From a virus, in the IMG/VR virus record IMGVR_UViG_3300044737_000121, positions 1-23,601 of that record: a stretch of DNA of 23,601 nt; one strand, written 5' to 3'. Positions 172 to 23,601 of the stretch are shown here, in pieces. Numbering within the stretch: position 1 is the first letter of the stretch; each line of letters starts with the position of its first letter. The position numbers and the translations under genes are program-made. Below the pieces are notes generated by a model that saw only the letters and a program-made list of their open reading frames with translations, made no database searches and was not told the DNA's origin.

Positions 172-272
172 CGATCACATTACATGATTGCCGGTCCTGA
201 GCTGTACGCGCGACGAGAATCTAGCAGTAGAATGCTACCATGGCGTGAGCTAGTATGGTTTGATGACCGCGA

Positions 273-280
273 GGGGAGGA
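273..280 (+). promoter_or_regulatory. Shine-Dalgarno site that decides the helicase start
   Basis: GGGGAGGA lies 8 bases before the ATG at 289. The in-frame ATGs at 184 and 232 have no comparable purine-rich site upstream, so translation probably begins at 289. Confidence 0.6.
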
Positions 281-288
281 ATTCAGCA

Positions 289-5980: not shown

Positions 5981-6030
5981 CTGCGCCTCCCGAATCATGC
6001 TGCCATCGATGAGACTCGCACGGCGCAGTC

Positions 6031-6432: not shown

Positions 6433-8159
6433 TTATTGAAGATGTGAATGTGATGCGGGGCGGCCAAGGCGCACAATTTCAGACCATGACCGCTTCAGAA
6501 ACTCGTCAAGACTTGGCTGTTCCTCGAACACCATGTGGCGGCCGAGGGCCATGATGAGGGCCACGGCTCCGTCGATTTTGTTCTCCGGCCGCTCCTTACG
6601 TGGGTAGACGTTCTCTTTCGCGTCGTAATGACCGACCACATTCCCGATCATCCAGGCAAGGACAGCGTTGCCGTCGTGTACGATCTTTCCCGAGCGCATC
6701 AGCGCATCGAGCTGTTTGGTGGGTTCGGAGAAGTTCGCAACCGTCTGCCGGAACTCGACGACGCGTGCACCTTGCGTCTGCAAGCGGGTTGCGAGCTGGG
6801 TTGCCTGCCAGGGATCGTAGGCGACTTCGCCGACCTGGAATCGCTTGCTCGCTTCGAGAATGTCCGCTTCGATCCGGTCGAAGTCGATGATATCGCCCGG
6901 CGTCGCGGTCATCTGGCCCTGGGATACCCAAGCCCGGTAGCTGTCGAGGTGTGGGACATCGGCCGCAGCTTCCGGGACATAGAAGCGCGCGAACGGGATC
7001 AGTTTTCCGTCCTTCTGGAAGAGAAGAATCACGGCCGCAATGTCCGTCTTGGTCGCGAGGTCGACCGCGATGATGCAAGGCTGGCCCTCGAACTGTTCGA
7101 GGGCAAGGCCCCGATCGGCGCAACGTTCCCAGGCCGCCATGTCGAACAGGGCCTGGTCCACCTGGATCCAGACGTCGAGGTGCTTGGTCAGAAAGGAGGC
7201 CCGGGAGGCCGGCGACTGCATGGCCTTGCGACACTGCAAGGCGAGATGTTCGGGCTCGACCGAGATGCCGTAGTTCGGATTGGCCTTGCGCCAGGTCGCT
7301 TCGGCCGTCCAGTCGTCGCCCTCATCAATGGTGTAGATGATCCCAAAATAGTTCTCGTCCTTGATGGTCCCCTTCAGGATGTTGCGCACGTAGGCCTGCT
7401 GCTCGTAGCAGACGCCTAGCGTATCGGAACCCGCGGTCGCGATGGCCCAGAGCATCGACTGGTCGCGCTTGCCGGCCCCGGTCTCGATGGCGTCGTAGAC
7501 GTCGCGGCTGCGGTGGGCATGGAACTCGTCGATCAGCCCGAAGTGGACATTCTTGCCCTCCAGGATGTCGGCGTCGGCGGAGACCGCTTCGAAGTAGCTC
7601 GCAGACCGGGCCTGCACGATCCGGTGCGCCAGCACCTCGACGCCGAGCGACCTGCGGAAGTCCCTCGACCTCCGTACCATCTCCTGCGCGGTCCAGAACG
7701 CGATCTTGGTTTGGTCGCGCGTGCGGGCGGCGCTGTAGACCTCGGCGCCGCCTTCCCGATCGGCCGTCAGCATGTAGAGCGCCGGCGCATCGGACATCGT
7801 GGTCTTGCCGTTGCCGCGCGGCACCTCGATGTAGACCGGCGGAAGCGCCGCTTGCCCGTATCGGCCCGGACCCAGCCGAACGCGGTGGTCAGGATGAAGG
7901 CCTGCCAGGGGGCCAGCTCGATGCGCTGGCCGGCCATGGGCCCCTTGATGTGGGGCAGCAGCTCGGCAAACCGGCAGATCCGTTCTGCGGCCAGCGGGTC
8001 GAACCGGTAGGGCCAGCGCCGCCGCGACAGGTCGCGCAGTTGCCGTTCACAGGCCTGCCGGACGAAGACGCAGGCCGGAATCCGGCCCTCGATGACCTGC
8101 TCGGCATAGCGCAGGGCCCGCGCCAGGGGCGGGCGGGGGGCTTTAGCTCGGGCGGCCAT
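6433..8159 (-). pseudogene. Phage terminase large subunit (Terminase_1 type), split by a one-base frameshift
   Basis: The large terminase is the ATP-driven motor and nuclease that packages phage DNA. The N-terminal part starts at 8159 (MAARAKAPRPPLARAL) and runs through IELAPWQAFILTTAFGW to about 7840. The rest continues in another frame from VYIEVPRGNGKTT (Walker A) through HFGLIDEFHAH (Walker B) and the nuclease acids in IIAVDLATKTDIAAV and RPENKIDGAVALIMALGR. At 7836-7839 the sequence reads CCGG where one more C would restore a continuous protein of about 575 residues, normal for the family. Both halves are otherwise well preserved, so either the break is recent or it is a sequencing error. 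The start overlaps the small-subunit gene by 17 bases. The C-terminal tail (SWSEIVRLGRPASHSHLQ) may be foreign sequence. Confidence 0.85.
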
Positions 8160-8643
8160 CCATTGCCCAGAATTGGGAGAAGCTCTCCTGAGGGTCATGT
8201 TCGAAGGGCTCCTTGGCGATGCGGCTGCGGGCGCTCGGCGTCATGCCGAACTCGGCGGCGTAGCGCACCATGTCGACCATGGCCCGGTTGGCGATCCCGA
8301 CCAGCGGGTTCTGGATCGGATTGCCGTTGGTGGTCTTGATCATCAGGCCGGAGGTGAGCTGGTCGCGCTCCGCCATGGTCGAGATCGCGCGCTCGGCCTT
8401 GAGCCACCGGCCATAAGCCTGGGCGTACGCGGCAAGCGCCGCGCGATCGATCTCGCACAGGGTGCCGAGCTGATGGAGGAGCGGAGCCATCCGCTCCCAC
8501 TCGAGCTTGGCGTCTTCGCACAGCTCTGCGGGCGGGCTCGGCAAGGCCGCCTCGGGCTTCGGTTCCTGCTCGTTGAGCGCGCGCTTCCCGGGATTGCCGT
8601 TGAGAAGTTTCAGATACGTGGGCTTTGGCTTGCGTCCGCGCAT
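8143..8643 (-). CDS. Phage terminase small subunit (P27 family)
   Basis: A 166-residue protein, usual for P27-type small terminases, which recognise phage DNA and hand it to the large subunit. It opens MRGRKPKPTYLKLLNGNPGK, the family hallmark, followed by the helical region around AKLEWERMAPLLHQLGTL. The open frame extends upstream, but the ATG at 8643 is chosen because GGAGG lies 7 bases before it and the conserved region begins there. It sits 2 bases after the stop of the methyltransferase and overlaps the large terminase start, so the three are co-transcribed. Confidence 0.88.
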   Translation of the reverse strand: MRGRKPKPTYLKLLNGNPGKRALNEQEPKPEAALPSPPAELCEDAKLEWERMAPLLHQLGTLCEIDRAALAAYAQAYGRWLKAERAISTMAERDQLTSGLMIKTTNGNPIQNPLVGIANRAMVDMVRYAAEFGMTPSARSRIAKEPFEHDPQESFSQFWAMDGRPS

Positions 8644-8645
8644 GA

Positions 8646-9934
8646 CTAGCCTCCGACCGGAGAGGTGACGGTAGGGTCGACGCAAGTTGCGCCCGTGCGC
8701 TTCGCAGCAACCTCGGCAAAGCTTTCCTTCGTGGCCTCCAGCATCGCGGTGTGTCCGGTGAACGCCTCCCAGCGCTTGATGGCGACGTCCACGTAGGCGG
8801 GCCAGAGCTCGATCCCGTGGCAAACCCGGCCGGTGATCTCAGCCGCGATGATGGTGGTGCCGGAGCCGCAGAATGGGTCGTAGACCGCTTGGCCGGTCGA
8901 CGAGTTGTTCTGCATCGGCCGCTTCATGCACTCCACCGGTTTCTCGGTGCCGTGGCCGGTCTCCGACCTGGCATGCGGGATCTCCCAGACTGTCGTCTGT
9001 TTGCGGTCGCCACCCCATTGTCCGGTCTTGCCCTTGCGCACCGCATACCAGGCCGGTTCGTGCCTCCAGTGGTAATCCCCCCGGCTGATCACCAGTCGGG
9101 TCTTGTCCCAGATGATCTGCGAGCGGATGACGAAGCCGGCGGCTTCCAGGCTCGTCGCCACGTGCCGGCGTGCAGCGCGCTGTGCCACACATAGGCGACA
9201 TCGCCAGGAAACAGCATCCAGGCCTCGCGCCAGTCGTCCCGGTCGTCATTGAGCACTTCACCGCGGGCCAGCGTACTCCCGTCCGAGAGCCCCGCCTGCG
9301 CGCGCCATTTCGGGCTGTAGGACACGCCATAGGGCGGATCGGTCACCATCAGGTGAGGCACAACCCCAGCCAGCACGGCGCTCACTGCGGCTGCGTCGGT
9401 ACAGTCGCCGCATGCGAGCCGGTGCGCTCCGAGCAGCCACACGTCGCCGACGCGGCTGACGGGCTCGACCGGAGCCTCGGGGACGTCATCCGGATCCGTC
9501 AGGCCCTGGTGCTGTGCGGCTGCGAACGAGGTCAGCTCCCGGTCCGAGAACCCGACCAGTGAGAGGTCGAAGCCCAACGCGGTGAGATCGCCGACCTCCA
9601 ACATCAGAACTTGCTTGTCCCACCCTGCGTTCTCGGCGAGCTTGTTGTCAGCGAGCACATAGGCCCGGCGCTGCGCCTCGCTCCAGCCGCGCGCGACCAT
9701 GACCGGCACGTCCTGGAGTCCGAGCTGCCGGGCGGCCAGCACGCGGCCGTGGCCCGCGATGATGGTTCCCTGCTCGTCGACGAGCACCGGATTCGTCCAG
9801 CCCCACTCCCGGATCGACGCTGCGATCTGCGCCACCTGCGTGTCATCGTGCGTGCGGGCGTTGCGCGCGTAAGGCACCAGCCGATCGAGCGGCCATCGTT
9901 CGACCTTGTCGGCTGGCCAATCACCGCTGCTCAT
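8646..9934 (-). pseudogene. ParB-domain DNA methyltransferase, split by a one-base frameshift
   Basis: A phage-type protein with an N-terminal ParB-like domain (IIAGHGRVLAARQLGL) fused to an N6-adenine/N4-cytosine DNA methyltransferase. The catalytic motif is DPPYG in MVTDPPYGVSYSPKW, and the SAM-binding motif YDPFCGSGTTIIAAE lies near the C-terminus; this IV-before-I order is the beta type. The frame changes at about 9161: after HSALHAGT the protein continues as VATSLEAAGFVIRSQIIWDK in another frame, and one extra C at 9161 would join them into about 430 residues. Start at 9934 (MSSGDWPADK) with a G-rich site upstream, overlapping the HNH gene by 14 bases. Its likely role is protecting phage DNA from host restriction. 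As written it would be inactive. Confidence 0.85.
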
Positions 9935-10346
9935 TTGACCCCCCGGTCCAATTTCGCGGACGCAGAAGTTTTGCGAGGGCACCGGTCCCGCTGCGGGGAT
10001 CGTGGACTTTTGACCCCCCCCCCTCTGGCCGGTTTCTCTCCTGACGCTGTTTGGCGCTGTCATGATGTGGCTGGCACAGCGACTGCCAGTTATCCGGGTC
10101 CCAGAACTTCTGGTGATCACCGCGATGCGCTACGACGTGGTCGACCACGACAGCGGCCGTCACCCGGCCATCGCGCTCACAGAAGACGCAGAGAGGGTGT
10201 TGCGCGAGATACGCTGCCCGCGCCTTCTGCCACGCCGTCGTGTAGCCGCGCTCACGCGACGAGCCGCGGCGATGATCGAACTCACGCCGGCAGTCCGTGT
10301 GAGTCCTCTGGCCGAGAGCTTGATGGAGGGGCGGGCATTTCGGCAT
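9921..10346 (-). CDS. HNH endonuclease (phage type)
   Basis: A 141-residue protein from the ATG at 10346. The HNH fold is visible: CVFCERDG (zinc-binding cysteines), VVVDHVVAHRGD (first His), DPDNWQSLCQPHHDSAK (Asn, Cys and final His). Phage HNH proteins next to terminase genes often assist DNA cleavage during packaging, and the position upstream of the methyltransferase and TerS/TerL fits that role. The start lies 2 bases after the stop of the preceding small gene and the end overlaps the methyltransferase start, so translation is probably coupled. The ribosome site is weak. Confidence 0.85.
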   Translation of the reverse strand: MPKCPPLHQALGQRTHTDCRREFDHRRGSSRERGYTTAWQKARAAYLAQHPLCVFCERDGRVTAAVVVDHVVAHRGDHQKFWDPDNWQSLCQPHHDSAKQRQERNRPEGGGSKVHDPRSGTGALAKLLRPRNWTGGSNEQR

Positions 10347-12748: not shown

Positions 12749-12949
12749 ATGAGCGCTGCGCCAAGCCCACGGGAAAGCGGAGACGAACGCCTCGCCGAAA
12801 TCGCCGAAATTTTCGCGGCCGGCCTAATACGGCTGCGCGCGCGACAGTCCAATCCTTTATTTCAGGACACCGGAGAATTTTCGCTCGACATCTCGCCCAG
12901 CCAGAGCGGTCATCCAATCCGCGTGGACCGGAGAAACTCGGATGGCTGA
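12749..12949 (+). CDS. Small conserved protein of the recombinase cassette
   Basis: A 66-residue protein (MSAAPSPRESGDERLAEIAE...) with a helical front half and no membrane segment. It overlaps the DUF2924 gene by 8 bases, so translation is likely coupled. The start at 12749 follows a G-rich run that is very close (GGGGAG directly adjacent), so the true start could differ; the frame is open from 12668 with TTG. Small proteins in this position are, to my knowledge, common in Rhizobiales recombinase cassettes, but I know of no assigned function. Confidence 0.65.
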   Translation: MSAAPSPRESGDERLAEIAEIFAAGLIRLRARQSNPLFQDTGEFSLDISPSQSGHPIRVDRRNSDG

Positions 12950-13388
12950 CACCGTTCTGGGGCAGTTGGCGACCCTCAAAACCGCCCCAATCGCCCACCT
13001 CAAACAGAAATGGCGCGAGTTGTTCGAAACCGAACCGCCGCCCTATAACCGCAGGTTTTTGGAGCATCGCCTTGGTTATCGAATCCAACAACTCGCCTTG
13101 GGCGGGCTTAGGCCCGAGACGATCAAACGGCTCAAGGACATTGCCTGGGCCCTCGACGGCCGAGACCCAGCACGTCGCCGCCGCCCAGGCAATGACAGAC
13201 CGCTCTCCGGCACGCGCCTGATCCGGGAATATCAGGGGGTCGAGCACTGCGTGACGGTGCGTGACGAGGATTTCGAATATCAGGGTCGGCCTTTCAAATC
13301 GCTGTCCGCGATTGCACGCGCCATTACAGGCACGCGATGGAACGGGCTCCTCTTTTTCGGCTTGAAGAACCGGCGGGGAGCGGAATGA
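12942..13388 (+). CDS. DUF2924 family protein
   Basis: A 148-residue basic protein. AHLKQKWRELFETEPPPYNR and RFLEHRLGYRIQQLALGGL followed by GTRLIREYQGVEHCVTV match DUF2924, a family regularly found directly before serine recombinases in alphaproteobacterial islands. The C-terminal half (FEYQGRPFKSLSAIARAITG, then WNGLLFFGL) resembles a small DNA-binding module, which suggests an accessory role in recombination; that is inference. It overlaps the preceding gene by 8 bases and the recombinase by 4 (ATGA). Confidence 0.85.
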   Translation: MADTVLGQLATLKTAPIAHLKQKWRELFETEPPPYNRRFLEHRLGYRIQQLALGGLRPETIKRLKDIAWALDGRDPARRRRPGNDRPLSGTRLIREYQGVEHCVTVRDEDFEYQGRPFKSLSAIARAITGTRWNGLLFFGLKNRRGAE

Positions 13389-14698
13389 AGAAGCCCATCG
13401 TCCGAAAGCTCCGGTGCGCCGTGTACACGCGCAAGTCCAGCGAGGAGGGGCTGGATATGGAGTTCAATTCGCTCGACGCACAACGAGAGGCGTGCGAGGC
13501 GTACATCGCAAGTCAGAAACCGGAAGGCTGGGTGCTCGTCCCCGACCGTTATGATGATGGTGGGATTTCCGGGGCGACGCTGGAGCGACCTGCGCTGCAG
13601 CGGTTGCTCGCCGACATTGAAGGCGATCGCGTCGACGTCATAGTCGTCTACAAGATCGACCGCCTCAGCCGAGCCTTGATGGATTTCGCGAAGCTGGTCG
13701 AGGTATTCGACCGCAATAACGTCACCTTCGTGAGCATCACGCAATCGTTCAACACGACCACGTCCATGGGGCGGCTGACGCTCAACATCCTGCTCTCGTT
13801 CGCTCAGTTCGAGCGGGAGGTCATCGGCGAGCGCATCCGTGACAAGTTTGCTGCTTCTCGCAAGAAGGGGATGTGGATGGGTGGGTTCGTGCCGCTCGGC
13901 TATGACGTCAAGGATCGCAAGCTCGTCTTCAATGAAGCCGAAGCCGCAACGGTCCAGCGGATCTTCGAGAAATTCACGAAGAGCGGCTCGGTAACGGCAC
14001 TCGTCCGGGTGCTTCGAGCTGAAGATGTGCGCGGAAAACGCGGGCGCCTCATCGATAAGTCCTACGTCTATCAGCTCTTCAGGAACCGGGTGTATCTTGG
14101 CGAGGCCGTCCACAAGGGCACGTCCTATCCTGGCGAACACCACGCCATCATCAGCAACACGCTGTGGGACGAGGCCCACGCCATCCTGAGCGAGGGCGCG
14201 CGTCAACGTGCCGCCAGCACTCGCGCGCAGACCCCGGCGTTGCTGAAAGGGCTGATTTTCGGTCCGAGCGGATGCGCCATGACGCCAACGCACACGCGTA
14301 AGGGCGGACGTCTCTACCGCTACTACATCGCGACCACCGTGCTGAAACACGATGCTCCACAGTGCACGGTGCGAAGGGTATCGGCCGGTGAGATCGAGGG
14401 TGCAGTTATCGACCAAGTTCGGGGCCTTTTGCGATCGCCCGAGATGATCGTGCGAACGTGGCGGGCGGGAAAGCGGCTGGTTGCTGGGCTGCAGGAATCA
14501 GAGGTGAGTGCCGCTTTGCAGCGTCTCGACCCGCTTTGGGACGAACTCTTCCCCGCCGAGCAGGTTCGCATCATCCAGTTGCTCATCGAACGAGTCGACG
14601 TGGACCCGGATGGCATCGACATCCGACTGCGAACAGAAGGGCTAGCGAACCTGACGGCGGAGCTGGACGCGGTCAGGCCAGGGCAAAAGGCTGCGTAA
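13385..14698 (+). CDS. Serine recombinase (large, site-specific)
   Basis: A 437-residue recombinase. The resolvase domain is complete: YTRKSSEEGLDMEFNSLDAQ holds the catalytic serine (S18), with DRYDDGGISGATLERPALQR and YKIDRLSRALMDFAKLVE after it. GYDVKDRKLVFNEAEAATVQ begins the recombinase domain that contacts attachment sites. The C-terminal zinc-ribbon region is reduced, with only two clear cysteines (FGPSGCAMTP, HDAPQCTVRR). The start at 13385 overlaps the DUF2924 stop and follows a GGGGAG site; the longer frame from 13337 is not preferred. It probably integrates or excises the surrounding island, but no attachment sites could be identified within this window. Confidence 0.93.
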   Translation: MKKPIVRKLRCAVYTRKSSEEGLDMEFNSLDAQREACEAYIASQKPEGWVLVPDRYDDGGISGATLERPALQRLLADIEGDRVDVIVVYKIDRLSRALMDFAKLVEVFDRNNVTFVSITQSFNTTTSMGRLTLNILLSFAQFEREVIGERIRDKFAASRKKGMWMGGFVPLGYDVKDRKLVFNEAEAATVQRIFEKFTKSGSVTALVRVLRAEDVRGKRGRLIDKSYVYQLFRNRVYLGEAVHKGTSYPGEHHAIISNTLWDEAHAILSEGARQRAASTRAQTPALLKGLIFGPSGCAMTPTHTRKGGRLYRYYIATTVLKHDAPQCTVRRVSAGEIEGAVIDQVRGLLRSPEMIVRTWRAGKRLVAGLQESEVSAALQRLDPLWDELFPAEQVRIIQLLIERVDVDPDGIDIRLRTEGLANLTAELDAVRPGQKAA

Positions 14699-15111
14699 TG
14701 ACGAAGCCGAAGATCAGCAGCGACGGTCGCACCATCACCGTGCGGGTGCCGATTTCAATTCGGAAGCGCGGTGGCCGGAAACTCGTTGTTGCTCCCGACG
14801 GCACGAACGTGACGACGGCGCCCATCGCCCGCCGCATCGACAACGCCACGGTCAAGGCGATCGCCAGGGCGTTCCGCTGGCGGGAAATGCTGGAGAACGG
14901 CACCTACGCGACCATCGCAGAGATCGCCGCCGCCGAGAAGATCAATGAGTCTTACGTGGGTCGCGTGCTACGGCTGACCCTGCTCGCTCCGGAAATCATA
15001 GAGCGCATTGCGCAAGGGCGGCAGCCCACAGACTTGTCTCTTTCGAAGTTGTTGGCGCCCCTGCCGGTGTGTTGGCGAGAACAGAAGCGCATGGTGGGGC
15101 TCACCGTGTGA
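14698..15111 (+). CDS. HTH protein of the recombinase cassette
   Basis: A 137-residue protein whose ATG overlaps the recombinase stop by one base (TAATG). The C-terminal half, YATIAEIAAAEKINESYVGR then VLRLTLLAPEIIERIAQGRQ, is a clear helix-turn-helix resembling those of ParB/KorB-like and recombinase-accessory proteins. The N-terminal part (SDGRTITVRVPISIRKRGGR) is strand-rich. It probably binds DNA and assists or regulates the recombinase. It ends 116 bases before the seven-gene locus and has its own stop, so the next operon may have a separate promoter. Confidence 0.75.
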   Translation: MTKPKISSDGRTITVRVPISIRKRGGRKLVVAPDGTNVTTAPIARRIDNATVKAIARAFRWREMLENGTYATIAEIAAAEKINESYVGRVLRLTLLAPEIIERIAQGRQPTDLSLSKLLAPLPVCWREQKRMVGLTV

Positions 15112-15227: not shown

Positions 15228-16268
15228 ATGACGGATGGGAAGAAGACCAAGCTCTACGGGCACCTAGGCCAGGCGGTGCGGCAGCCCGCGTTGGTTGGAT
15301 TTGCGCCCGCAACCGTTCTGCACCGGCTGAGCTACGCCGATGTTCTCAACGAAGACGCTGGCACAGGCTATCAGCGGCGCCTCAATCCACAACACAGCCT
15401 GGATTTCCGGCGGTACGTTCAAACCGACGGCTCCATGACCATACCGCTCACGTTTAACGTCCGACCGGAGGCTGCCAATCACTGGCGCCTGATAGGCAAA
15501 GGCGCCCATGCGCGACTCGAAATTGACGGGGATGCACGTGTACTGGCGCAGGTGGATTGCCAGCATCGCTTGGGGCACCTCCACGACCTCGACGTACCGC
15601 TGCCCTTCATGTGTTTTATCGGGCTGAGCGCACGCGAAGAGATGGAAGCATTCCGGGTTATCAACAGCAAGGCCAAAGGGCTGAGCACGAGCCTGCTCGA
15701 CTTTCACGACGCGCAACTCGCTGCTGATCTGGCATCAGAGCGCCCAGAGCTATTCATCGCATTGCAGCTGAACGTAAACGAACAATCTCCTTGGCGACGT
15801 CAGCTTGATTTAGGTGGCGACAAGACGTCTGGTCTCACGCGGCGCGCCTCACTGCGGACAATGCAAAAGGCGGTGCGGGACTACTTACTCACCCCAACGG
15901 GAATCCTCCAGCGTGAAAGCGCAGAAGCCGTGGCCGCTATGGTTGTCGAGTTCTGGCTTGCAGTCACGGATGTCATGCCAGGCCCTTGGAGCGACCCGCG
16001 CGGGCATCTAATAACGAAGGGCGTCGGTGTTTATGCGCTTACCGGACTGATGGCCCAGATTTATCAGGAAAAAGGCGCAGCGGCCGCTTGCGCACGTCGC
16101 GCCTTCCGGACCGAACTCGCAGAGCTGGGGCCGAGTGTTGATTGGACTGGACAGGGCACATTCAAGGGACTCGGCGGAGAGTCGGGCGCCAAGGAAGCGC
16201 TGCGAGTCTTGCTGAAGATAAGAAGCGAAACGCTTGCTACCGAAAGGACGGGTAGCCATGGCCGGTAA
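15228..16268 (+). CDS. DGQHR-domain (DndB-like) protein
   Basis: A 346-residue protein starting at ATG 15228, with AGGA 7 bases upstream; a GTG at 15210 is the alternative. The signature ARVLAQVDCQHRLGHL (D110-C-Q-H-R114) corresponds to the DGQHR motif of the DndB family, with Cys in place of Gly. The second family block, EAFRVINSKAKGLSTSLLDF (140-159), is also present. DndB proteins accompany DNA phosphorothioation genes and act in regulation of, or DNA binding by, the modification system. Here no Dnd sulfur genes are nearby; instead the gene overlaps a radical SAM gene by 11 bases. A role as DNA-binding partner or regulator of a modification enzyme is inference. Confidence 0.8.
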   Translation: MTDGKKTKLYGHLGQAVRQPALVGFAPATVLHRLSYADVLNEDAGTGYQRRLNPQHSLDFRRYVQTDGSMTIPLTFNVRPEAANHWRLIGKGAHARLEIDGDARVLAQVDCQHRLGHLHDLDVPLPFMCFIGLSAREEMEAFRVINSKAKGLSTSLLDFHDAQLAADLASERPELFIALQLNVNEQSPWRRQLDLGGDKTSGLTRRASLRTMQKAVRDYLLTPTGILQRESAEAVAAMVVEFWLAVTDVMPGPWSDPRGHLITKGVGVYALTGLMAQIYQEKGAAAACARRAFRTELAELGPSVDWTGQGTFKGLGGESGAKEALRVLLKIRSETLATERTGSHGR

Positions 16269-17898
16269 AAACATTCTGCTCATCGAGCCGGGGTACAAGA
16301 ACAAATATCCACCCCTCGGTCTGATGAAGATTGCTCAATATCACGGACCGCAAGGAAAGCAGGACAAAGTTCGGTTTATCAAAGGCGAGGACAAGAGTGT
16401 CCTTTCGACCGCTTGGGACCGTATCTACGTCACGACCCTCTTCTCGTTCGAATTCGCCAAGATTGCGCAGACCATAGACTTCGCTCTGCATGCCGCGAGC
16501 GGGCAGGCAGATAAGGTCTTCGTGGGCGGCATCGCGGCCTCGCTTATGAATGAGAGATTTCGCGCCAAACCGGAATGGCACGGCATCCGTTTCATCAAAG
16601 GGCTTCTGAGCGCGCCGCCAGCGGTAGCGCTTCAGCTCGATGATTTTTCCGAAGAACTTTATTCCGGGGACACGAGCGGACGTCCGATCGAGGATCTCGT
16701 CCCCGACTACAGCATCCTGTCGCAGATTGAATACCACTATCCTGTCAACGACGCATATTTCGCCTACACGTCTCGGGGCTGCATCAGGAAGTGCCACTTC
16801 TGTGGCGTCCCGAAACTTGAAGGCGCGCAACGCGACACGGAGTCACTCACCGGACTCGTGCGAGAAATCGATCGGCTCTATGGGCAAAAGAAAGACCTGA
16901 TGCTCATGGACAACAACGTCGTCGCATCGCCCCGCTTCAAGGAGATTATTGCGGAGATACGCGACCTTGGCTTTACGCCGGGCGCCAAGCTCAAGCGCGA
17001 TGGCACGCGGACGCCAGTGCAACGTCGGGTCGATTTCAACCAGGGCGTCGACGCCAGAATCCTATGCAAGGATCCGGTGTATCTCCGAGAACTCGCGACC
17101 ATCTGTCTGAAGCCGCTCCGGATCGCCTTCGATCATCTCGGGGTGAAGAAGCCGTACGAGCAAGCGATCCGCTATGCACATGAATTCGGGCTGACAGAGC
17201 TCTCCAACTATATGCTCTACAACTTCCACGATGGTCCAGCCGACTTGTTTGAGCGAATGCGTCTGAATGTCAAACTGAACGAGGAATTGGGAGTACGGAT
17301 TTGGTCGTTTCCTATGCGCTATCAACCAACTAATCGACCCGACCGCGGCCATGTTGGTGAGAAGTGGACTCGATATCAGCTTCGTTCGTTGCAGATTGTT
17401 CTGCAGGCTACGCACGGCGTCGTCAGCGGCGAGCCTGACTTCTTCAAGCGCGCCTTCGGAGATACACAGAGCGACTTTGAAGGCATCCTTGCGATGCCAC
17501 ACGACTTCATCTTCAACCGAGATTGGTACGAACGGTTCGAAGGCAAGCCCGAACTTCATGACTACCAAGCCGCGTATCGGCGTCTCACCCTTGAGCAGCG
17601 CTCCGAACTAATCATTCTTCTCTCTTCATGCGATCCACGCGAGTTTGCAATGTTGGTCAAGCGCTGCACCGACGCGCGTCTCAAAGCTGCTCTCCAGTTC
17701 TACATTCCGGTTCCGAAGGATGAACTCGCCAGAATTTGGGCAAAGCAAAAGCTCCTGACCGCCAACGACAAGCAGCTTCAGATCGGACTGGCAGACGACG
17801 AGATTGTGGAGGACGCTGACCTCGAAAGCGAGGTTTCCTCACAGCCAACGGCTGTACAGAACCCGAAAGCGCGCAACGAAAGGACAGTCTTACAATGA
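16258..17898 (+). CDS. Radical SAM protein with B12-binding-like N-terminus
   Basis: A 546-residue protein; the ATG at 16258 is preferred to a TTG at 16234. The N-terminal 130 residues resemble a cobalamin-binding fold (NILLIEPGYKNKYPPLGLMK, later VFVGGIAASLMNERF), though the classical DxHxxG cobalt-ligand motif is absent. The radical SAM domain follows with YTSRGCIRKCHFCGVPK, cysteines 175, 179 and 182 in the CxxxCxxC spacing that binds the 4Fe-4S cluster. Such enzymes generate a 5'-deoxyadenosyl radical; B12-type members often methylate or rearrange carbon centres. The C-terminal 150 residues form an unassigned region with an acidic stretch near the end (DDEIVEDADLESEV). The substrate is unknown; its place among DNA-acting genes makes DNA a candidate. 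It overlaps the next gene by ATGA. Confidence 0.88.
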   Translation: MAGKNILLIEPGYKNKYPPLGLMKIAQYHGPQGKQDKVRFIKGEDKSVLSTAWDRIYVTTLFSFEFAKIAQTIDFALHAASGQADKVFVGGIAASLMNERFRAKPEWHGIRFIKGLLSAPPAVALQLDDFSEELYSGDTSGRPIEDLVPDYSILSQIEYHYPVNDAYFAYTSRGCIRKCHFCGVPKLEGAQRDTESLTGLVREIDRLYGQKKDLMLMDNNVVASPRFKEIIAEIRDLGFTPGAKLKRDGTRTPVQRRVDFNQGVDARILCKDPVYLRELATICLKPLRIAFDHLGVKKPYEQAIRYAHEFGLTELSNYMLYNFHDGPADLFERMRLNVKLNEELGVRIWSFPMRYQPTNRPDRGHVGEKWTRYQLRSLQIVLQATHGVVSGEPDFFKRAFGDTQSDFEGILAMPHDFIFNRDWYERFEGKPELHDYQAAYRRLTLEQRSELIILLSSCDPREFAMLVKRCTDARLKAALQFYIPVPKDELARIWAKQKLLTANDKQLQIGLADDEIVEDADLESEVSSQPTAVQNPKARNERTVLQ

Positions 17899-19589
17899 CT
17901 GAAGGTGCCCTCGCTCTCAAGACTAAAGGCCCGGTCGCGGAGACGGAGTCGATCGACAAGATCGTGATCGGAAAGGATGTGCTCGAACTGGTGTCGAGCG
18001 CGATGTATGTCGATCCGCTGACGATCTACCGCGAATATGTGCAAAACGCCGCCGATGCGATTGATGAGGCGCTGGCGGCAGGGCTGTACGGGAGGCACAA
18101 GAAGGGACTAGTTACCATCAGCATCGACTCGGCATTACGGAAGGTTACGATTAGAGACGACGGCATTGGTGTGCCCTGGCAAGATTTCGCGCGCTGTATG
18201 ACCTCGCTCGGTGCGAGCGGAAAACGAGGCGGCGTTGCGCGCGGCTTCAGAGGCGTAGGTCGCTTGGCCGGATTAGGATACGCGCAGCGCCTCACGTTCC
18301 GTTCTCGCGCACAGGGCGAGAGCCGCGTGTCCGAACTGAATTGGGATTGCCGACTGCTCCGCTCCGTTCTTCGGTCGAGCGATCCAGACGCAGGTATCGA
18401 AGATCTGATCCGACGGTCGGTGTCGCTCTCGCGTATTCCGGCCGACGGATATCCCTCTCGCTTCTTTGAGGTTGAGCTTGATGGCGTAGTACGGTTACGC
18501 AGCGACAAACTGATGAGTCCGACGGCGATTGCAGAATATCTATCGCAAGTGGCTCCCGTCCCTTTCTCTCCGGAATTCCCTTTCGCCGAAGAGATTCGTC
18601 AAGCCGTCGAGCCGGCGGTGAAGTTAGACACCTTTGACCTTCGCGTTTCTGGCGTGGACGGCGCGATCTATCGGCCACACCGGCGTGGTTTCACTGACGA
18701 GAAGAAGCAAGGGAAGTTTGAAGGGCTAGAGATTTTCACGATCCCAGACGTTGACGGAAATTCGGCCGCGATCGGCTGGCTCTTGCATCACGAATATGAT
18801 GGCGCTGTACCAACAGCAACGGGTTTCAAGGGGGTGAGGCTGCGCGTCGGCAATGTCCAGATCGGCGGAAACGCGCTCTTGGAAGAATTGTTCACGGAAC
18901 CGCGCTTTAACTCCTGGTCTATCGGAGAAGTCCATATTCTCGACAGGCGCATCATACCGAACGCCCGCAGAGATGATTTCGAGCAGAACGCGCACTACAG
19001 CAACTTGCTAAATCAGGTCACACCCATCGCGCGAGCGATTTCGAAGCGTTGCCGAACCAGCTCCAAGCGCCGGCAATTGCTGCGGGACTTCGAACTACAG
19101 GAGCAGGGAGTGAAGGAACGGCTGCATATCCTGAAGCAGGGTGGCATCAGGAAAGAAGCGCGCCGAGGGCAGTCGAGGCAGATTGAACATGCCTTGAATA
19201 AAATGAGGCGACTCGCCAACGCTCAGGAGGTGGACTCCGAGAAGGATAAATTGGGCACACGCATATTAAAGATAGAGGAGCGGGTACGTGAAGCTACGAG
19301 ATCGTTGCCAAGTTCTCCACTCGACGTCCTACCACCAGCGAAACGCGGCATGTACGGGCAAATGATCGAACTGATCTATGAGTGTTCGACCAATCGCGTT
19401 GCGGCAAAATCACTGGTAGACCGCATTCTGGAAAAGATCGCTCTAAGCGATGAAGCAAATACGGGGACTTCCGCCAAGAGTCTAAAGAGAAGCAAGAATT
19501 CACCTGTCACGGTGCCCCGAAATTCAAAGACTCGCGCGAAAAAGCGTGGCGCGCGGGAAACCGGCCAAAAGGCTCGACGTCCTGGCTAA
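17895..19589 (+). CDS. GHKL ATPase (Hsp90/MORC-like)
   Basis: A 564-residue protein starting in an ATGA overlap with the radical SAM gene. The Bergerat ATP-binding fold is clear: REYVQNAADAID (E47, N51, D54), RDDGIGVPW (88-95) and RGFRGVGRLAG (116-126) with the ATP-lid glycines. The order and spacing match Hsp90/MutL/MORC-type ATPases rather than histidine kinases, because no phosphoacceptor domain is present. Residues about 200-380 fit the following S5-like and middle domains. The rest is charged and probably coiled coil, with a strongly basic tail (KTRAKKRGARETGQKARRPG) suited to DNA binding. Bacterial MORC-like ATPases are known from restriction-linked operons. Here it would be an ATP-gated clamp or sensor for the locus; this is inference. 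Confidence 0.85.
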   Translation: MTEGALALKTKGPVAETESIDKIVIGKDVLELVSSAMYVDPLTIYREYVQNAADAIDEALAAGLYGRHKKGLVTISIDSALRKVTIRDDGIGVPWQDFARCMTSLGASGKRGGVARGFRGVGRLAGLGYAQRLTFRSRAQGESRVSELNWDCRLLRSVLRSSDPDAGIEDLIRRSVSLSRIPADGYPSRFFEVELDGVVRLRSDKLMSPTAIAEYLSQVAPVPFSPEFPFAEEIRQAVEPAVKLDTFDLRVSGVDGAIYRPHRRGFTDEKKQGKFEGLEIFTIPDVDGNSAAIGWLLHHEYDGAVPTATGFKGVRLRVGNVQIGGNALLEELFTEPRFNSWSIGEVHILDRRIIPNARRDDFEQNAHYSNLLNQVTPIARAISKRCRTSSKRRQLLRDFELQEQGVKERLHILKQGGIRKEARRGQSRQIEHALNKMRRLANAQEVDSEKDKLGTRILKIEERVREATRSLPSSPLDVLPPAKRGMYGQMIELIYECSTNRVAAKSLVDRILEKIALSDEANTGTSAKSLKRSKNSPVTVPRNSKTRAKKRGARETGQKARRPG

Positions 19590-19606
19590 TCGGCTTGTGA
19601 AACAAC

Positions 19607-19623
19607 GAAGCTGTTCAGGCTTC
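19607..19623. terminator. Weak hairpin between the convergent operons
   Basis: GAAGC and GCTTC can pair around a 7-base loop, followed by AATTT on the plus strand. It lies at the meeting point of the two operons, which are only 25 bases apart stop to stop, where a bidirectional terminator would be expected. The stem is short and the T-run poor. Confidence 0.2.
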
Positions 19624-21057
19624 AATTTCTGAACGCTCGTTCTGTTCCGGCCACAACAGCGCGCGTAGGATTTCGGGCTTGCTCAGAGCAAGATCTTCCT
19701 GAGCGATGCTGCCTACATCCTGCTGGACATATTTCGCGAGCCTTGCCTTCTGCTCTAGGCAGAAGTCAATAAATTTGTCAACTGTGTTCTCAGCTACAAG
19801 CAATAGGATTTCGCAGTCCCGAGTCTGCGAGATGCGATGGATGCGATCCTGCGACTGGATGTAGTCAACCAAATTGAATGTTCTGTCTAAGTATATGGCG
19901 AGATTGGCTTGAGTGAGCGTCAGGCCTTCACGCGCCGCTGCTGGGTTGGCAATCATTAGCTTGACCTGGGGATCGCTCTTGAAAGCGCGTACCGCCGCAT
20001 CCCGCTCCGGGCCCGAAATAGCACCATGGATAGTGACCGGCCGGTACAGAGCATAGCGTCGCTGAAGAACGCCCATATTCGGTACAAACGAACTCCAGAC
20101 GATCGCCTTCCTCCAATCTTGGGACAGAGCTTCAGCAAGAATACGGTCGAGAGCGGCGAATTTCGAAGGTTCCTCTTTGTATGCTGCATCCAGCAGTCCG
20201 GGGTTCGACGCGAGTTGTGCCAAGCGCACTAGCCTAGCAAGGATGGCGTCGGCCTCTTGAAGTACCTGCTCACCCGTGAGCGACTTCACCCACAGCGCGA
20301 GCTCGTTCCGCATGCTATCGTACATCGCCTGCTGATGAGGAGAGAGCTTCACCCTAAATCGGCGAATCTGCTTCGCAGGAAGTTTTACGGCATGATCCTT
20401 AAGGCGGCGCCTTGAGAGACCAGCAACCTTCAAACGAAGATCGTCTAGCGATTGGTAGGCGCCGCCCGCGCCCTTATATCGCGCGCGGAAGTCATCCAAG
20501 GTCTCCCCAAGAGATACGCCGTCGTCTAGAAAGTAAAATTGACTCCACAAATCCTCAGGCTTGTTCGCAACGGGCGTGCCGGAGAGGATATAGCGGCGGG
20601 CGGCGTGGCCGCGTAGCTGCAGAACTGCTCCTGTAACTTTTGCATCCGGCGTCTTGATACGGTGGCTTTCGTCGAGGACCAATGCCATCGGCTTGAAGCG
20701 CAACAGCGCCTTCAGGGCTGGCAACTCCGCTCCCACCGCCTCGTAGTTGATAACGTAAAACGCAGCACGCAGTTTTGTGAAAGGGCGCCGGCGCGCTTTG
20801 CGGCCGGCCCCGAACACTGCAACGGGCAAGTCCGAGAATTTCTTTATTTCTTCAACCCAGGTCGTCTTAAGCCCGTTCGGACAAATAATGACAGCACCGC
20901 TCAAGGTTTCGCCCTTTATTTCGGCGGCGATGGCGTCGATCAGCTGCTTAGTCTTTCCGAGCCCTTGCTCGTCAAAGAGAGCTGCACGATCGTTTTGTCG
21001 AAGGAACTCGGTCCCCTCTACTTGATGAGGAAGCGATGCGATCTCTTCACGCGGCAC
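19615..21057 (-). CDS. SNF2-family helicase/translocase (compact)
   Basis: A 480-residue protein starting at GTG 21057; GGAGG sits 8 bases upstream, inside the end of the nuclease gene, so translation is coupled with an 11-base overlap. An ATG at 21090 would add 11 residues. SNF2 motifs are complete: FDEQGLGKTKQ (Walker A, 32-36), LVLDESHRIK (DESH, 129-132), ILSGTPVANK, and QSQDRIHRISQTRD near 401-413. No accessory domain is present, so this resembles the minimal SMARCAL1/HepA-like core. SNF2 proteins move along duplex DNA and do not usually unwind it. Placed directly behind a small PD-(D/E)XK protein, it probably acts as the motor of a two-subunit nuclease. Confidence 0.92.
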   Translation of the reverse strand: MPREEIASLPHQVEGTEFLRQNDRAALFDEQGLGKTKQLIDAIAAEIKGETLSGAVIICPNGLKTTWVEEIKKFSDLPVAVFGAGRKARRRPFTKLRAAFYVINYEAVGAELPALKALLRFKPMALVLDESHRIKTPDAKVTGAVLQLRGHAARRYILSGTPVANKPEDLWSQFYFLDDGVSLGETLDDFRARYKGAGGAYQSLDDLRLKVAGLSRRRLKDHAVKLPAKQIRRFRVKLSPHQQAMYDSMRNELALWVKSLTGEQVLQEADAILARLVRLAQLASNPGLLDAAYKEEPSKFAALDRILAEALSQDWRKAIVWSSFVPNMGVLQRRYALYRPVTIHGAISGPERDAAVRAFKSDPQVKLMIANPAAAREGLTLTQANLAIYLDRTFNLVDYIQSQDRIHRISQTRDCEILLLVAENTVDKFIDFCLEQKARLAKYVQQDVGSIAQEDLALSKPEILRALLWPEQNERSEIEA

Positions 21058-21480
21058 GGCGAATTCCTCCGAGCAGGATTTCCGGTACATGCAGCCGCAC
21101 GACGTGGCGCGCGCGGATGAGCCCCGTCTTGATGAGGATCTCGTCAAGCTTGCGGGCTTCGTAGCGCGGGACGGAAATGTACAGCGGACAGAGGAGGCCG
21201 CCACCTTTCATCCTAACATTCCCGAATGTTCGCAGCTGAGCGAGAGTGTGTCCGTTGTCTATGTCGGCGGCCGTTTTTGCCTCGGCGAAGGCGAGCAGGG
21301 CGCCATCTAGTCGCGCCCCCCACGCATCCGGCCTATGTCCCCTCAGCATGAACGGTGTCGACAGCTCGTTCCAGAAGCCTGCCTGGTCAGCGCTGTGGTC
21401 GAAGCCCGTGACGACGAACCCGTCCGCGCACATCCGTCGCGCGCCCAAAGCAAAAGCGTCTGATGCTTGCCGCTCGGCAT
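21047..21480 (-). CDS. Small PD-(D/E)XK nuclease, interrupted by a probable one-base deletion
   Basis: The main frame (from about 21440) reads CADGFVVTGFDHSADQAGFW, then RPDAWGARLDGALLAFAEAK, then HTLAQLRTFGN. PD followed 13 residues later by EAK is the PD-(D/E)XK nuclease signature. This frame has only a TTG (21448) or an unsupported ATG (21433) as start. The natural start appears to be ATG 21480, with GGGA before it, which gives MPSGKHQTLLLWAR in another frame; a missing base within 21440-21446 would join the two into a protein of about 144 residues. It lies 7 bases after the upstream ParB gene and overlaps the SNF2 gene by 11. The nuclease assignment is reasonably sure; whether the break is real or a sequencing error is open. 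Confidence 0.7.
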
Positions 21481-21487
21481 CTGGTCC

Positions 21488-22528
21488 CTATCTACGATTT
21501 CCAGCGGCTCGCCTAGCGGTCTTGGGCACAGAAACGCGGTCGATATTTTCGAGCACCGCCGCCAGTGTCTCCTGAAGAGACGTGAGAATCTCCAGGCGCT
21601 CCGGACACTGCCGGGCTTCAACCATCTCCGCGATGGACATTTTGGCAAGGCGGGCGCGCGTCTTTTCGAGCTGTAGATAAAGCTCCTGTTCGCGAGGGTT
21701 GTTCTCCGCGAGGTACTCTTCAGCTGCGTCGAAACCGTTCACCTCCAAGAGGCGCACAGCCTCTTTCGCGTCAAGAATCTTCGGCAGCTTGCGGACCTTC
21801 ATGCCCGTATCGACTTTGCCATCTCGTACCCAACATGCGAAGCGCTCCGGGAGATTATTCATTCCTTCTCGGTGCTGTGTAATCCGCGTGTTGCGCGTGA
21901 ATTCAAGGAAGTATGAAAATTTGCTGCGGTGATCGGGATGAGCAGGGTCCTCGGTGATCGGAACGTAGATGCGGTCCATCATATTTGCCGCTTCGATATG
22001 TTGACGCACATCATTTGTGGTCATGCGGTACCGCTCGGCGACCTCGGCTTCGATGAGACCGGCCTTTACCAGCGCTCGCATTTGCAGCGCTTTTTCATAT
22101 GGTGCCCAACCGCGAACAGACCCGAGATGAATCTCGTTTAGAAGGTCTTGAACGGTTTCCTCCGGCGTGCCTTCCGGGATGATCCAGGCTGGCATTGTTT
22201 GGAATGCCGGATTACCGGGATGCTCTTCCTTGGCCGCTCGTAGGGCTACCACCCGACGATTGCCTTCTGCCACGGTATGGTCATGACGCAAGTAGATCGG
22301 TTCCTGAACGCCACCCGACAAGATGATTGAGCGTTTGAGACCCTCGGTATCCTCTTGGCTGGTCAAGAGCAGCGTGCATGCAGCATCGCTGCGATCCTGG
22401 TCCTCGAGCTGACGCATCGAAAAACCCACCCTCGGGTTAGTGGAATCCAGGATCACGACGTCCGGGTCCACTTCGGTGAGCGTCAGCTCCACTCGCGCAC
22501 CCTGAATATTACGTGTGTAGGCAATCAT
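21488..22528 (-). CDS. ParB-like protein A (downstream paralogue)
   Basis: A 346-residue protein. The ATG at 22528 is preferred because GGAGA lies 6 bases upstream; an in-frame ATG at 22546 forms an ATGA overlap with the preceding gene and is also plausible. The ParB N-terminal domain is visible: VVILDSTNPRVGFS (24-37), VAEGNRRVVALRAAK (86-100, the GxRRxxA nucleotide-binding box) and NEIHLGSVRGWAPYEKAL (131-148), which aligns with the ENxQR box of ParB. An HTH follows (AEVAERYRMTTNDVRQHIEA, 161-180). The C-terminal 150 residues are helical. Canonical ParBs are CTP-dependent DNA clamps; CTP use here is inference. It is a paralogue of the gene directly upstream. Confidence 0.82.
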   Translation of the reverse strand: MIAYTRNIQGARVELTLTEVDPDVVILDSTNPRVGFSMRQLEDQDRSDAACTLLLTSQEDTEGLKRSIILSGGVQEPIYLRHDHTVAEGNRRVVALRAAKEEHPGNPAFQTMPAWIIPEGTPEETVQDLLNEIHLGSVRGWAPYEKALQMRALVKAGLIEAEVAERYRMTTNDVRQHIEAANMMDRIYVPITEDPAHPDHRSKFSYFLEFTRNTRITQHREGMNNLPERFACWVRDGKVDTGMKVRKLPKILDAKEAVRLLEVNGFDAAEEYLAENNPREQELYLQLEKTRARLAKMSIAEMVEARQCPERLEILTSLQETLAAVLENIDRVSVPKTARRAAGNRR

Positions 22529-22542
22529 GGCTGTTCTCCGAG

Positions 22543-23601
22543 TCATTTCAAACCGTCACAGAGGTCGACGAAGCGCTCCAGAGCCGCATTGAGATTACGG
22601 ACGATGGTCTTTGCCCCCCCGGTGGGGTCCTTGCGGACGCGCTGGATGTCGTCGAGGCGCGCATCGGCAAGTGCCTCAGTCATCTGAACCATGAGCTTGA
22701 AGAGTGGCGAGCTGAGCTCCGGCCGATCCTGGTTTAGAATCTTTAGCGCGGCGTCCCGGCCCTGCTTGCTAAAGGCGGCGAGCGCTCTAGGATTCGAAAC
22801 AATATCGCATAGTTCGCGGACGTGCTGTCCCTGAGCAATTTTGTTAGTGCCTACCCATCGGACAAAATCATCGAGCGCTTCGGGCGAGTGCGTCACCCAT
22901 TCTCGCAGTTCTGGTTTCTTGAAAAGCTCCTGGAAGTAGCTGAATTTCCGCACAGCGCCGGGGCCGGGGAATGAAACAAGATATTTGTTCTTCATCACGT
23001 CGAACGCACGAATGTTATGGTTCACCGCGGTCTTTGAGGTCTTAAGTAGCTTGGCGATCTCCTCCTGCACCATTCCGAATTGATTGAATAGCTGATGAAT
23101 GTGACCCGCCTTTTCGAACGCAGACCATTTATTTTTTCCGCCGACGTGAAGCTCGCCCAGCAAGATTGCAATTTGACGATCAGTGATGTCGGCGGGAAGT
23201 ACCCTGGCGGGTATGGCCCGCCAAAGAGGATCGTCCGGAAAATTATCCCGCAGTTTACGATAGACCACGGTGCGGCAGTTCCCTTCTGCCACGACCATGT
23301 TGTTGCGAACGATGATGCGCTCGATAAGGCCGCGGTTGGCGAGAACGGAACGGTAGAGATCGTGCACGTCCGAGTCGGACCATAAGACATCGTTCAGGGC
23401 GCGCTGCTCGGCTTTGGCGCCGCCCGGCAAGCCGGCGGCCACAGTGTTCGCTACTCGCGGGTTTGTGGGATCAAGGAGGACGTCGTCGAGCGGCAGGTCC
23501 TGCCCGCGCACCTGGACCTTCACCTTGTCGAGCGTGATCTCGTCAACCTGCTCGACGACGACATTCGCAGCCCTCGCGACGGCCGCGCTACGCCTTGCCA
23601 T
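22543..23601 (-). CDS. ParB-like protein B (upstream paralogue)
   Basis: A complete 352-residue protein whose ATG is the last codon of the window; its promoter lies outside. The N-terminal ParB domain has VLLDPTNPRVAN (41-52), MVVAEGNCRTVVYRKL (102-117) and LLGELHVGGKNKWSAFEKAG (137-156). The HTH (FGMVQEEIAKLLKTSKTAVN, 165-184) is close to that of chromosomal ParB/Spo0J proteins. It shares the DxTNPRV, VAEGNxR, EKA, and FSYFxE blocks with the next gene, so the two arose by duplication and may form a heterodimer. No ParA ATPase is present in the window. It overlaps the next gene or sits 14 bases from it, depending on the start used there. Confidence 0.85.
   Translation of the reverse strand: MARRSAAVARAANVVVEQVDEITLDKVKVQVRGQDLPLDDVLLDPTNPRVANTVAAGLPGGAKAEQRALNDVLWSDSDVHDLYRSVLANRGLIERIIVRNNMVVAEGNCRTVVYRKLRDNFPDDPLWRAIPARVLPADITDRQIAILLGELHVGGKNKWSAFEKAGHIHQLFNQFGMVQEEIAKLLKTSKTAVNHNIRAFDVMKNKYLVSFPGPGAVRKFSYFQELFKKPELREWVTHSPEALDDFVRWVGTNKIAQGQHVRELCDIVSNPRALAAFSKQGRDAALKILNQDRPELSSPLFKLMVQMTEALADARLDDIQRVRKDPTGGAKTIVRNLNAALERFVDLCDGLK

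Follow-up and report, generated by a model that had tools for sequence, protein, structure and literature searches.

Cellular systems known to discriminate self from foreign DNA use methyltransferases, phosphorothioation or deazaguanine exchange. The Dpd system combines a DGQHR-type protein with a base-modifying enzyme and an SNF2-type motor; in Dnd, whose DndB protein has been assigned to the ParB superfamily, the phosphorothioation modification core is often decoupled from the restriction modules, as passages of PMC10853773 report. In the paraMORC-linked restriction-modification (R-M) systems, as far as the available text of the Iyer et al. 2008 survey (PMC2292703) describes them, a GHKL ATPase with a proposed DNA-looping or clamp role is joined to a SWI2/SNF2 motor and a restriction-fold nuclease. 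Here we analysed IMG/VR record IMGVR_UViG_3300044737_000121 (hereafter the window, the whole stretch of 23,601 bp, which is a viral-record contig rather than a whole genome), in which a core of three genes, encoding a DGQHR/DndB-like protein, a radical S-adenosylmethionine enzyme (rSAM) and a GHKL ATPase, faces a module (module A) encoding two ParB-like paralogues, a small PD-(D/E)XK nuclease and an SNF2-family motor. These seven genes are a recurring bacterial gene set that apparently has not been named, and the set is likely a defence-type nucleic-acid system. We document below the linkage of the genes, their modularity, the active-site motifs that they have kept and their defence setting. 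The locus is laid out as follows.

15228-16268, plus strand: DGQHR/DndB-like protein, core gene 1; 346 aa from ATG 15228, with GTG 15210 as a possible start
16258-17898, plus strand: rSAM, core gene 2; 546 aa, with a CxxxCxxC motif
17895-19589, plus strand: GHKL ATPase, core gene 3, Hsp90/paraMORC-like; 564 aa, PF13589
19590-19614, no strand: convergent intergenic gap, 25 bp between stop codons
19615-21090, minus strand: SNF2-family motor, module gene; 491 aa from ATG 21090, PF00176
21047-21448, minus strand: small PD-(D/E)XK nuclease, module gene; 133 aa from TTG 21448, 128 aa from ATG 21433
21488-22546, minus strand: ParB-b, ParB-like paralogue, module gene; 352 aa, recognised by iterated profile search
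22543-23601, minus strand: ParB-a, ParB-like paralogue, module gene; 352 aa, its first base being the last of the window, with HTH_ParB and PDC-M38A matches

An earlier sequence-only reading of the window had placed seven genes in two operons meeting tail to tail across a 25-bp gap, and both the genes with their strands and the gap are borne out by profile matches and coordinates. The families that it named also hold, although the motif of the first protein is DCQHR here, the starts of the SNF2 and nuclease genes needed correction and ParB-b receives no ParB call from Pfam. Neighbouring genes overlap by 4 bp (rSAM/GHKL and ParB-a/ParB-b) or 11 bp (DGQHR/rSAM). A weak terminator-like hairpin beside the convergent gap (19606-19624) is no more than chance would give over the region; promoter and terminator signals across the window were no better than in shuffles, and an Rfam scan of the window for a non-coding RNA component gave zero matches. 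The closest relative is Bradyrhizobium sp. 187, whose ParB-a is 83% identical; there a third ParB follows ParB-a, and for this reason a third ParB probably lies past the end of the window as well.

By its logic the set resembles Dpd, Dnd, DISARM and the paraMORC-linked R-M systems, and by defining genes it stands outside the first three. The likeness to Dpd lies in a DGQHR-type protein accompanied by a base-modifying enzyme, an SNF2-type motor and a predicted self-marking logic, but here an rSAM takes the place of DpdA (tRNA-guanine transglycosylase, TGT), the DGQHR protein carries DCQHR and stays well under the DpdB cut-off, and a GHKL ATPase, a separate small nuclease and exchanged effector modules are added. 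With Dnd the set has a DndB-family protein in common, but it lacks DndACDE and sulfur-transfer enzymes, and its rSAM-GHKL pair is unrelated to DndC-DndD. PADLOC scans of the window proteins gave no match to DpdA, DndC, DndD or DndE, the DndB superfamily being the only Dnd match; the window lacks DpdA, DndCDE and DrmA/B, and none of them was noticed among the recurring neighbours. DISARM is approached by a distant rSAM-GHKL pair (loci L095/L207) inside a DrmA-DrmB operon, but the window has neither DrmA nor DrmB, and the L207 operon has no detected methyltransferase, the usual partner in DISARM. As in the paraMORC-linked R-M systems, GHKL, SNF2 and PD-(D/E)XK proteins are linked at the window locus, though facing each other. 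The available text of the Iyer et al. 2008 survey names no radical SAM enzyme, ParB or DndB, and it describes the paraMORC operons as frequently carrying DNA methylases (PMC2292703), whereas the neighbours of the rSAM core are nearly without methyltransferases.

Zorya likewise joins an SNF2 motor to a nuclease, and the SNF2 domain of ZorD is the top PADLOC match of the window's motor; this domain is all that resembles ZorD, the window proteins have no PADLOC match to ZorA or ZorB, motor and nuclease are separate proteins here and ParB proteins are found instead. A homologue of PD-Lambda-5_A stands immediately before a distant rSAM (L096), but not in the window, and the Escherichia coli PD-Lambda-5 system, described as RM+Abi-like in the available text of PMC9519451, includes a methyltransferase domain instead of an rSAM. 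Viperins are also radical-SAM enzymes of antiviral defence, but they belong to another branch, the window enzyme having a B12-type N-domain and a MiaB/CysS-like fold, and the window set is a multi-gene one with a DNA motor and a nuclease. No PADLOC 2023 model matches the rSAM or the GHKL protein, and the set matches no named system in PADLOC 2023 or NCBIfam. We found no description of it in the available text of the open-licence literature (PMC10853773, PMC12839542, PMC2292703, PMC8011034, PMC12137116, PMC12458937, PMC9519451, PMC12926258, PMC13391042), and subscription journals could hold one. Membership in Dpd, Dnd, DISARM or Zorya, which the sequence-only reading had also denied, was rejected since the defining genes are missing. 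The set is best placed with the self-marking nuclease-motor kind, and there is a real chance that its core chemistry is categorically new.

Core linkage and exchangeable modules

A scan of 84,980 species genomes with the rSAM yielded 146 relatives; the 80 best of them, together with six plasmid loci and the window, make up 87 loci. The GHKL gene directly follows the rSAM gene on the same strand in 86 of these, and the exception (L050) stops at a contig edge; the two genes mostly overlap by 4 bp. A DGQHR protein precedes the rSAM in 45 of the 87 loci, typically with an 8-bp overlap. When 72,556 plasmids were searched by tblastn with the rSAM and with the GHKL protein, close relatives of both were found on the same 12 records, seven of them typed as conjugative, and the DGQHR gene overlaps the rSAM gene in all 11 of the 12 carriers that are annotated. 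One core, SARO_RS17520-17530, is that of plasmid pNL1 of Novosphingobium aromaticivorans DSM 12444. After removal of near-duplicates the loci fall into eight phyla, with 50 in Pseudomonadota, 15 in Acidobacteriota and the remainder in Verrucomicrobiota, Chloroflexota, Gemmatimonadota, Nitrospirota, Binatota and Latescibacterota; several lie on megabase contigs or chromosomes. The set moves horizontally, between phyla. The rSAM family is sharply bounded: among 385 sampled Alphaproteobacteria genomes the sole full-length match was the reference genome itself, the others being one fragment (6e-51) and matches above 1e-6. The system is therefore rare and patchy, yet very well conserved where present. 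Cargo encoded by phages was considered and rejected, as the relatives in annotated phage records are no more than 40% identical and all cover less than 80% of the query.

Restricting the module census to the 67 loci flanked on each side by 5 kb or more (well-flanked loci), we found at least one of four modules in 64.

Module A (the kind in the window), 37 of 67 loci: ParB, nuclease, SNF2 and ParB
Module B, 28 of 67 loci: PIN_8-domain protein (PIN_8 1.5e-19) and a second GHKL protein
Module C, 15 of 67 loci: long DGQHR protein of about 790 aa
Module D, 7 of 67 loci: HerA/FtsK-type ATPase and/or an uncharacterised conserved protein

The modules occur on either side of the core and in either orientation, and the 30 well-flanked loci whose core is without the SNF2 module usually have module B, module C or the HerA-type set instead. 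Correlations of pairwise distances are high within each group (rSAM-GHKL 0.85, rSAM-DGQHR 0.60, SNF2-nuclease 0.90) and low between rSAM and SNF2 (0.35). State changes on the rSAM tree, compared with 200 label shuffles, number 17 for module A (shuffled mean 20.6, lowest 14), 11 for module C (12.8), 12 for module B (19.2) and 8 for the adjacent DGQHR gene (20.6). From these distance correlations and this switching it follows that the core and module A are two coherent units that have often been recombined. The core, either DCQHR-rSAM-GHKL or rSAM-GHKL alone, is inherited as a unit and combined with exchangeable modules. One example of module D, at L041:13171-17172 in an Acidobacteriota genome, runs convergently to the core and encodes an uncharacterised conserved protein together with a GHKL protein and a DndH/HerA-like ATPase.

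The linkage was also examined from the side of the module. Relatives of ParB-a occur in 6 of the 72,556 plasmids, and all six are among the twelve core carriers. A search with the ParB profile, covering 396 genomes from a single Alphaproteobacterial family and 399 from a single Acidobacteriota class, gave scores above 300 bits in six genomes, each with an rSAM beside the ParB; five of these are independent, the sixth being the reference that had been chosen for its core. The suggestion that the two operons belong together is therefore upheld, the module ParB standing only beside the core in 6/6 plasmids and 5/5 non-reference genomes. Co-occurrence of the homologues, which had been put forward as a check, links the operons one-sidedly, as module A depends on the core while the core is independent of module A. 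The picture of seven genes forming one set accordingly stands as far as recurring linkage goes, but has to be redrawn as a core plus exchangeable modules. Weaker ParB matches (265 bits or less) are found in other settings, for example in G919, where a lone ParB has neither SNF2 nor rSAM. An Acidobacteriota genome that lacks both rSAM and SNF2 has, at L225:8288-9322, an orphan ParB (252 bits) which belongs broadly to this family and has three large uncharacterised genes next to it. At L183:1-3867 another type of ParB (433 aa, PDC-M38A-like) overlaps an SNF2 gene beside a C5-like DNA methyltransferase (DLFAGAGGL), an arrangement that is possibly a methyltransferase-based cousin of module A.

Proteins of the core and of module A

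The rSAM is the most conserved protein of the set, with a mean identity of 0.65 versus 0.31-0.55 for the others. Its CxxxCxxC cluster motif (C-x3-C-x2-C, in the window CIRKCHFC) is kept in 87 of 87 sequences and contains all three invariant cysteines. The three further N-domain cluster cysteines of the methylthiotransferases MiaB and RimO were not found among the 87 sequences, and the assignment of the rSAM as a methylthiotransferase was rejected because this second set is missing. Scores against Pfam Radical_SAM and NCBIfam stay under the cut-offs. The AlphaFold2 (AF2) model (predicted local distance difference test, pLDDT, 84, low at the cluster loop) gave 15 fold matches below 1e-3 (best 4.5e-10), all of them radical-SAM enzymes or models thereof, the nearest being MiaB, AprD4, CysS, OxsB, TokK and RimO. 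The model shows a radical-SAM barrel that is preceded by a Rossmann domain, of the B12 type by fold, and followed by a C-terminus made up entirely of helices; the protein constitutes a new subfamily.

The DGQHR protein of the window matches TIGR03187 (124.5 bits, cut-off 58.9, 6.2e-36) and the DndB family PF14072 (32.9, cut-off 29.1, 4.8e-8), and DpdB at 4e-20. Its signature motif is DCQHR instead of DGQHR, a Gly-to-Cys replacement, and D110-C-Q-H-R is invariant in alignment A2. DCQHR is present in 44 of the 45 rSAM-linked copies, whereas the Gly is kept in 23 other copies at the same loci (18 long DGQHR proteins and 5 others). Judging by these alignments, the Cys is a diagnostic residue of the rSAM-linked subfamily. 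Sulfiredoxin, which has the ParB/Srx fold, works via a catalytic cysteine. With DndB assigned to the ParB superfamily (passages of PMC10853773), a catalytic role for the Cys of the DCQHR protein is an attractive idea. The GHKL protein has Pfam matches to HATPase_c_3 (PF13589; 35.7, cut-off 25, 1.1e-8) and weakly to HATPase_c, with no others, and by profile is nearest to HtpG/Hsp90 (HtpG 2e-10). Its ATP-site motifs are intact: REYxQNxxD in 84, DxGxG in 77 and GFRGxG in 84 of 86 sequences.

The SNF2 protein of module A matches PF00176 (102 bits, 3.7e-29) and PF00271 (9.4e-13), and in PADLOC it comes closest to the SNF2 domains of ZorD (2.7e-50) and DpdE (1.6e-42); Walker A and motif VI are each kept in 44 of 44 family members. 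ATG 21090 (491 aa) is the more likely start over GTG 21204 because the relatives measure about 490 aa. The nuclease is a member of the PD-(D/E)XK restriction fold, with a PD...EAK core whose residues P40 D41, E56 A57 K58 and Q71 are invariant among 31 sequences; the fold neighbours of its AF2 model (pLDDT 89) are NucS/EndoMS, MunI, Can2, Mus81 and BstEII, every match having E >= 0.01. The start of the window copy shows a one-base frameshift relative to its relatives, in which a conserved MPSxxHQTLLLWA opens the protein; here this begins at ATG 21480 in another frame, and the PD...EAK core is intact despite the frameshift. A search for near-identical contigs by which to judge the frameshift found none. 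ParB-a matches HTH_ParB (3.1e-4), parB_part (1.9e-5) and PDC-M38A (4.3e-14), and only after iterated profiles do ParB-b and ParB-a unite as one family. The family profile matches solved structures of the ParB N-domain plus helix-turn-helix (HTH) at 5e-5, and a G-N-x-R motif and a His are invariant in 53 sequences; on these profile comparisons the family is a member of the ParB/Srx superfamily with an N-domain and an HTH.

Genomic setting and proposed function

In order to characterise the setting, 89 sampled neighbour proteins and 89 control proteins from 12 random stretches were compared with PADLOC models at E <= 1e-10. The neighbours matched 90 models, including a CBASS cyclase, a phospholipase, Shango SngB, a type II methyltransferase, BrxD and PDC candidates, while the controls matched only the generic mad3 and mad8 models; as the test counts models rather than proteins, one protein matching many, and the control is just 12 stretches, it gives a direction rather than a size. 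With core loci lying among CBASS, Shango and BrxD genes, the proposal that the set is of the defence type is supported. Integrases and transposases are also frequent neighbours of the core. On a Mesorhizobium plasmid (L006:23686-25617) a DncV-like CBASS-type cyclase and a patatin-like phospholipase lie within 10 kb of it.

Distant relatives place the rSAM in two other settings. At L095/L207 an rSAM 40% identical to that of the window, with a GHKL partner, is part of the DrmA (2.8e-161)-DrmB (1e-52) operon, which at L207:1-16320 further holds two NERD/UvrD-type helicases, an Mrr nuclease and, as read from its N-terminal sequence, another GHKL-like protein. PF02384 (N6) and PF00145 (C5) methyltransferases were not found in the L207 record and a lone PF01555 match lies about 15 kb off, an absence that rests on these three Pfam models. 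At L096 the distant rSAM directly follows the PD-Lambda-5_A homologue (8e-72), and at L208:13899-17152 a PD-Lambda-5_A homologue stands directly ahead of an rSAM that shares 40% identity with that of the window, behind which lies a serine recombinase. A viral contig scan for more members of this distant clade returned only the known one. A methyltransferase motif scan of the neighbours of the 87 core loci found one N6/N4-like and zero C5-like proteins, and one MTase_II was among the neighbours sampled for the setting test. From this comparison the rSAM tends to stand where a methyltransferase would be expected, and the main argument for a marking role, a circumstantial one, is that it occupies the methyltransferase's usual place.

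On balance we favour, with some confidence, a modular defence system of a restriction-like type: the rSAM and the DCQHR protein would mark or license DNA, the GHKL protein would gate and the modules would destroy nucleic acid. The rSAM and DCQHR protein would act through radical chemistry on host DNA, or on a nucleotide bound for DNA, thereby filling the role of the DNA methyltransferase in R-M and DISARM, of DndABCDE in Dnd and of DpdA-DpdB in Dpd. The GHKL protein could be an ATP-driven dimer clamp, comparable to MutL/MORC, that reads the state of the DNA and gates the effectors. In module A the ParB proteins may load onto DNA as clamps, and the SNF2 motor may translocate and bring the separate PD-(D/E)XK nuclease to invading unmarked DNA; module B, with its PIN protein and second GHKL protein, could be an alternative or back-up effector, perhaps acting on RNA. 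That module A degrades DNA is probable, while the chance that the rSAM product is a DNA mark falls a little short of even. The working model of the sequence-only reading, in which DNA is marked or sensed, ParB proteins load and unmarked DNA is destroyed, would fit the modularity, the defence setting and the DrmA-DrmB operon without a detected methyltransferase. In a bolder version, which we put forward tentatively, the rSAM would be guided by a ParB/Srx-like DCQHR protein with an active Cys and would write into cellular DNA a chemically new modification of base or sugar, and the GHKL clamp would read this mark and restrain interchangeable DNA- or RNA-destroying modules. If true, radical chemistry would join the means of bacterial self/foreign DNA discrimination, the set would be a clear case of a defence system with a fixed core and swappable effector cassettes, and rSAM, DGQHR, PIN-like and ATP-binding genes that are listed separately in public records would be united. 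The presence of the core in a well-known strain, N. aromaticivorans DSM 12444, makes this directly testable.

Several points weigh against the marking system that we favour. Substrate, mark, sensing and cleavage are predictions from the genes; the nearest folds of the rSAM include the tRNA- and protein-modifying MiaB and RimO as well as enzymes of antibiotic biosynthesis; and the DGQHR family, missing from 41 of the 87 loci (some of them truncated), is not an obligate partner. The window's own nuclease copy may be damaged through its frameshifted start, the setting test is as coarse as described above, and the absence of methyltransferases depends on the motif scan and the three Pfam models.

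The strongest rival retains the defence system and changes the chemistry, such that the target of the rSAM is tRNA, a protein of the ribosome or a partner protein, or else the enzyme produces a chain terminator or a nucleotide-like signal in the manner of viperin, and the GHKL protein senses the product and releases the effectors. We regard this as possible, though somewhat doubtful. The nearest solved folds of the rSAM (MiaB, which acts on tRNA, AprD4, CysS, OxsB and RimO) point this way, the modules with a PIN domain suggest that some versions target RNA, the top conservation of the rSAM (0.65 vs 0.31-0.55) is what an invariant cellular substrate such as tRNA would lead one to expect, and viperins provide a precedent for rSAM enzymes in defence (available text of PMC12926258). 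However, the partners in the window (ParB, SNF2, PD-(D/E)XK and DndB-like) are DNA proteins, the rSAM-GHKL pair of the distant DrmA-DrmB operon sits where a DNA methyltransferase is usual, the cysteines for the second Fe-S cluster of methylthiotransferases are missing and viperin is not among the fold matches listed. That the set is a divergent form of Dpd, Dnd or DISARM is very improbable: the DGQHR protein does match DpdB and DndB, the SNF2 protein DpdE and ZorD, and a distant rSAM-GHKL pair lies within the DrmA-DrmB operon, but the DpdB score is 72 bits against an NCBIfam equivalog cut-off of 300, DpdA, DndCDE and DrmA/B are missing from the window, the SNF2 matches are limited to the generic motor domain and the rSAM and GHKL proteins have no PADLOC match.

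It is also conceivable, though unlikely, that the set serves the maintenance of, or competition between, plasmids and islands, with partition-like ParB clamps and a nuclease directed at rival replicons and phages as a side target. The twelve carrier plasmids, seven of them typed conjugative, the integrases and serine recombinase nearby and the predominance of ParB proteins in module A would agree with such a role, but most loci come from genome contigs, which span many phyla and include several megabase chromosomes, core loci are found among the CBASS, Shango and BrxD genes, and the ParB module is lacking at 30 of the 67 well-flanked loci. Chance juxtaposition of two unrelated operons in a prophage-rich region was rejected and is hardly credible. 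The left half of the window does consist of a prophage packaging region in decay, together with a transposase, but the same gene arrangement is found again in dozens of genomes that are unrelated; the core and module A lie together at 37 of the 67 well-flanked loci, with the module on one side or the other and in both orientations, and on plasmids the module ParB is found only with the core.

Other genes in the window

At the left end of the window (184-4536, plus strand) is a gene for a 1450-aa protein with weak matches to a NACHT/STAND-like ATPase and, at its C-terminus, to UvrD (GajB-like, 7e-4), which is possibly another defence gene. A DDE transposase with DUF772, an insertion sequence (IS) element, at 4943-5998 on the minus strand separates it from the prophage genes. 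The latter form a packaging region with a terminase small subunit (6436-8198, 8146-8823 and 8649-10120, all on the minus strand), in which the terminase large subunit is split over two frames and a gene for a ParB-methyltransferase fusion is likewise split; either the prophage has decayed or the contig contains indel errors.

Directly upstream of the core, at 12942-15111 on the plus strand, are DUF2924, a serine recombinase and a small recombinase-associated protein (phrog_14161). The recombinase has Resolvase, Recombinase and Zn ribbon domains and is CcrB-like. The serine-recombinase cassette that had been noted beside the locus is therefore present, and this DUF2924-serine recombinase stretch, which adjoins the prophage packaging region, is likely an integration cassette.

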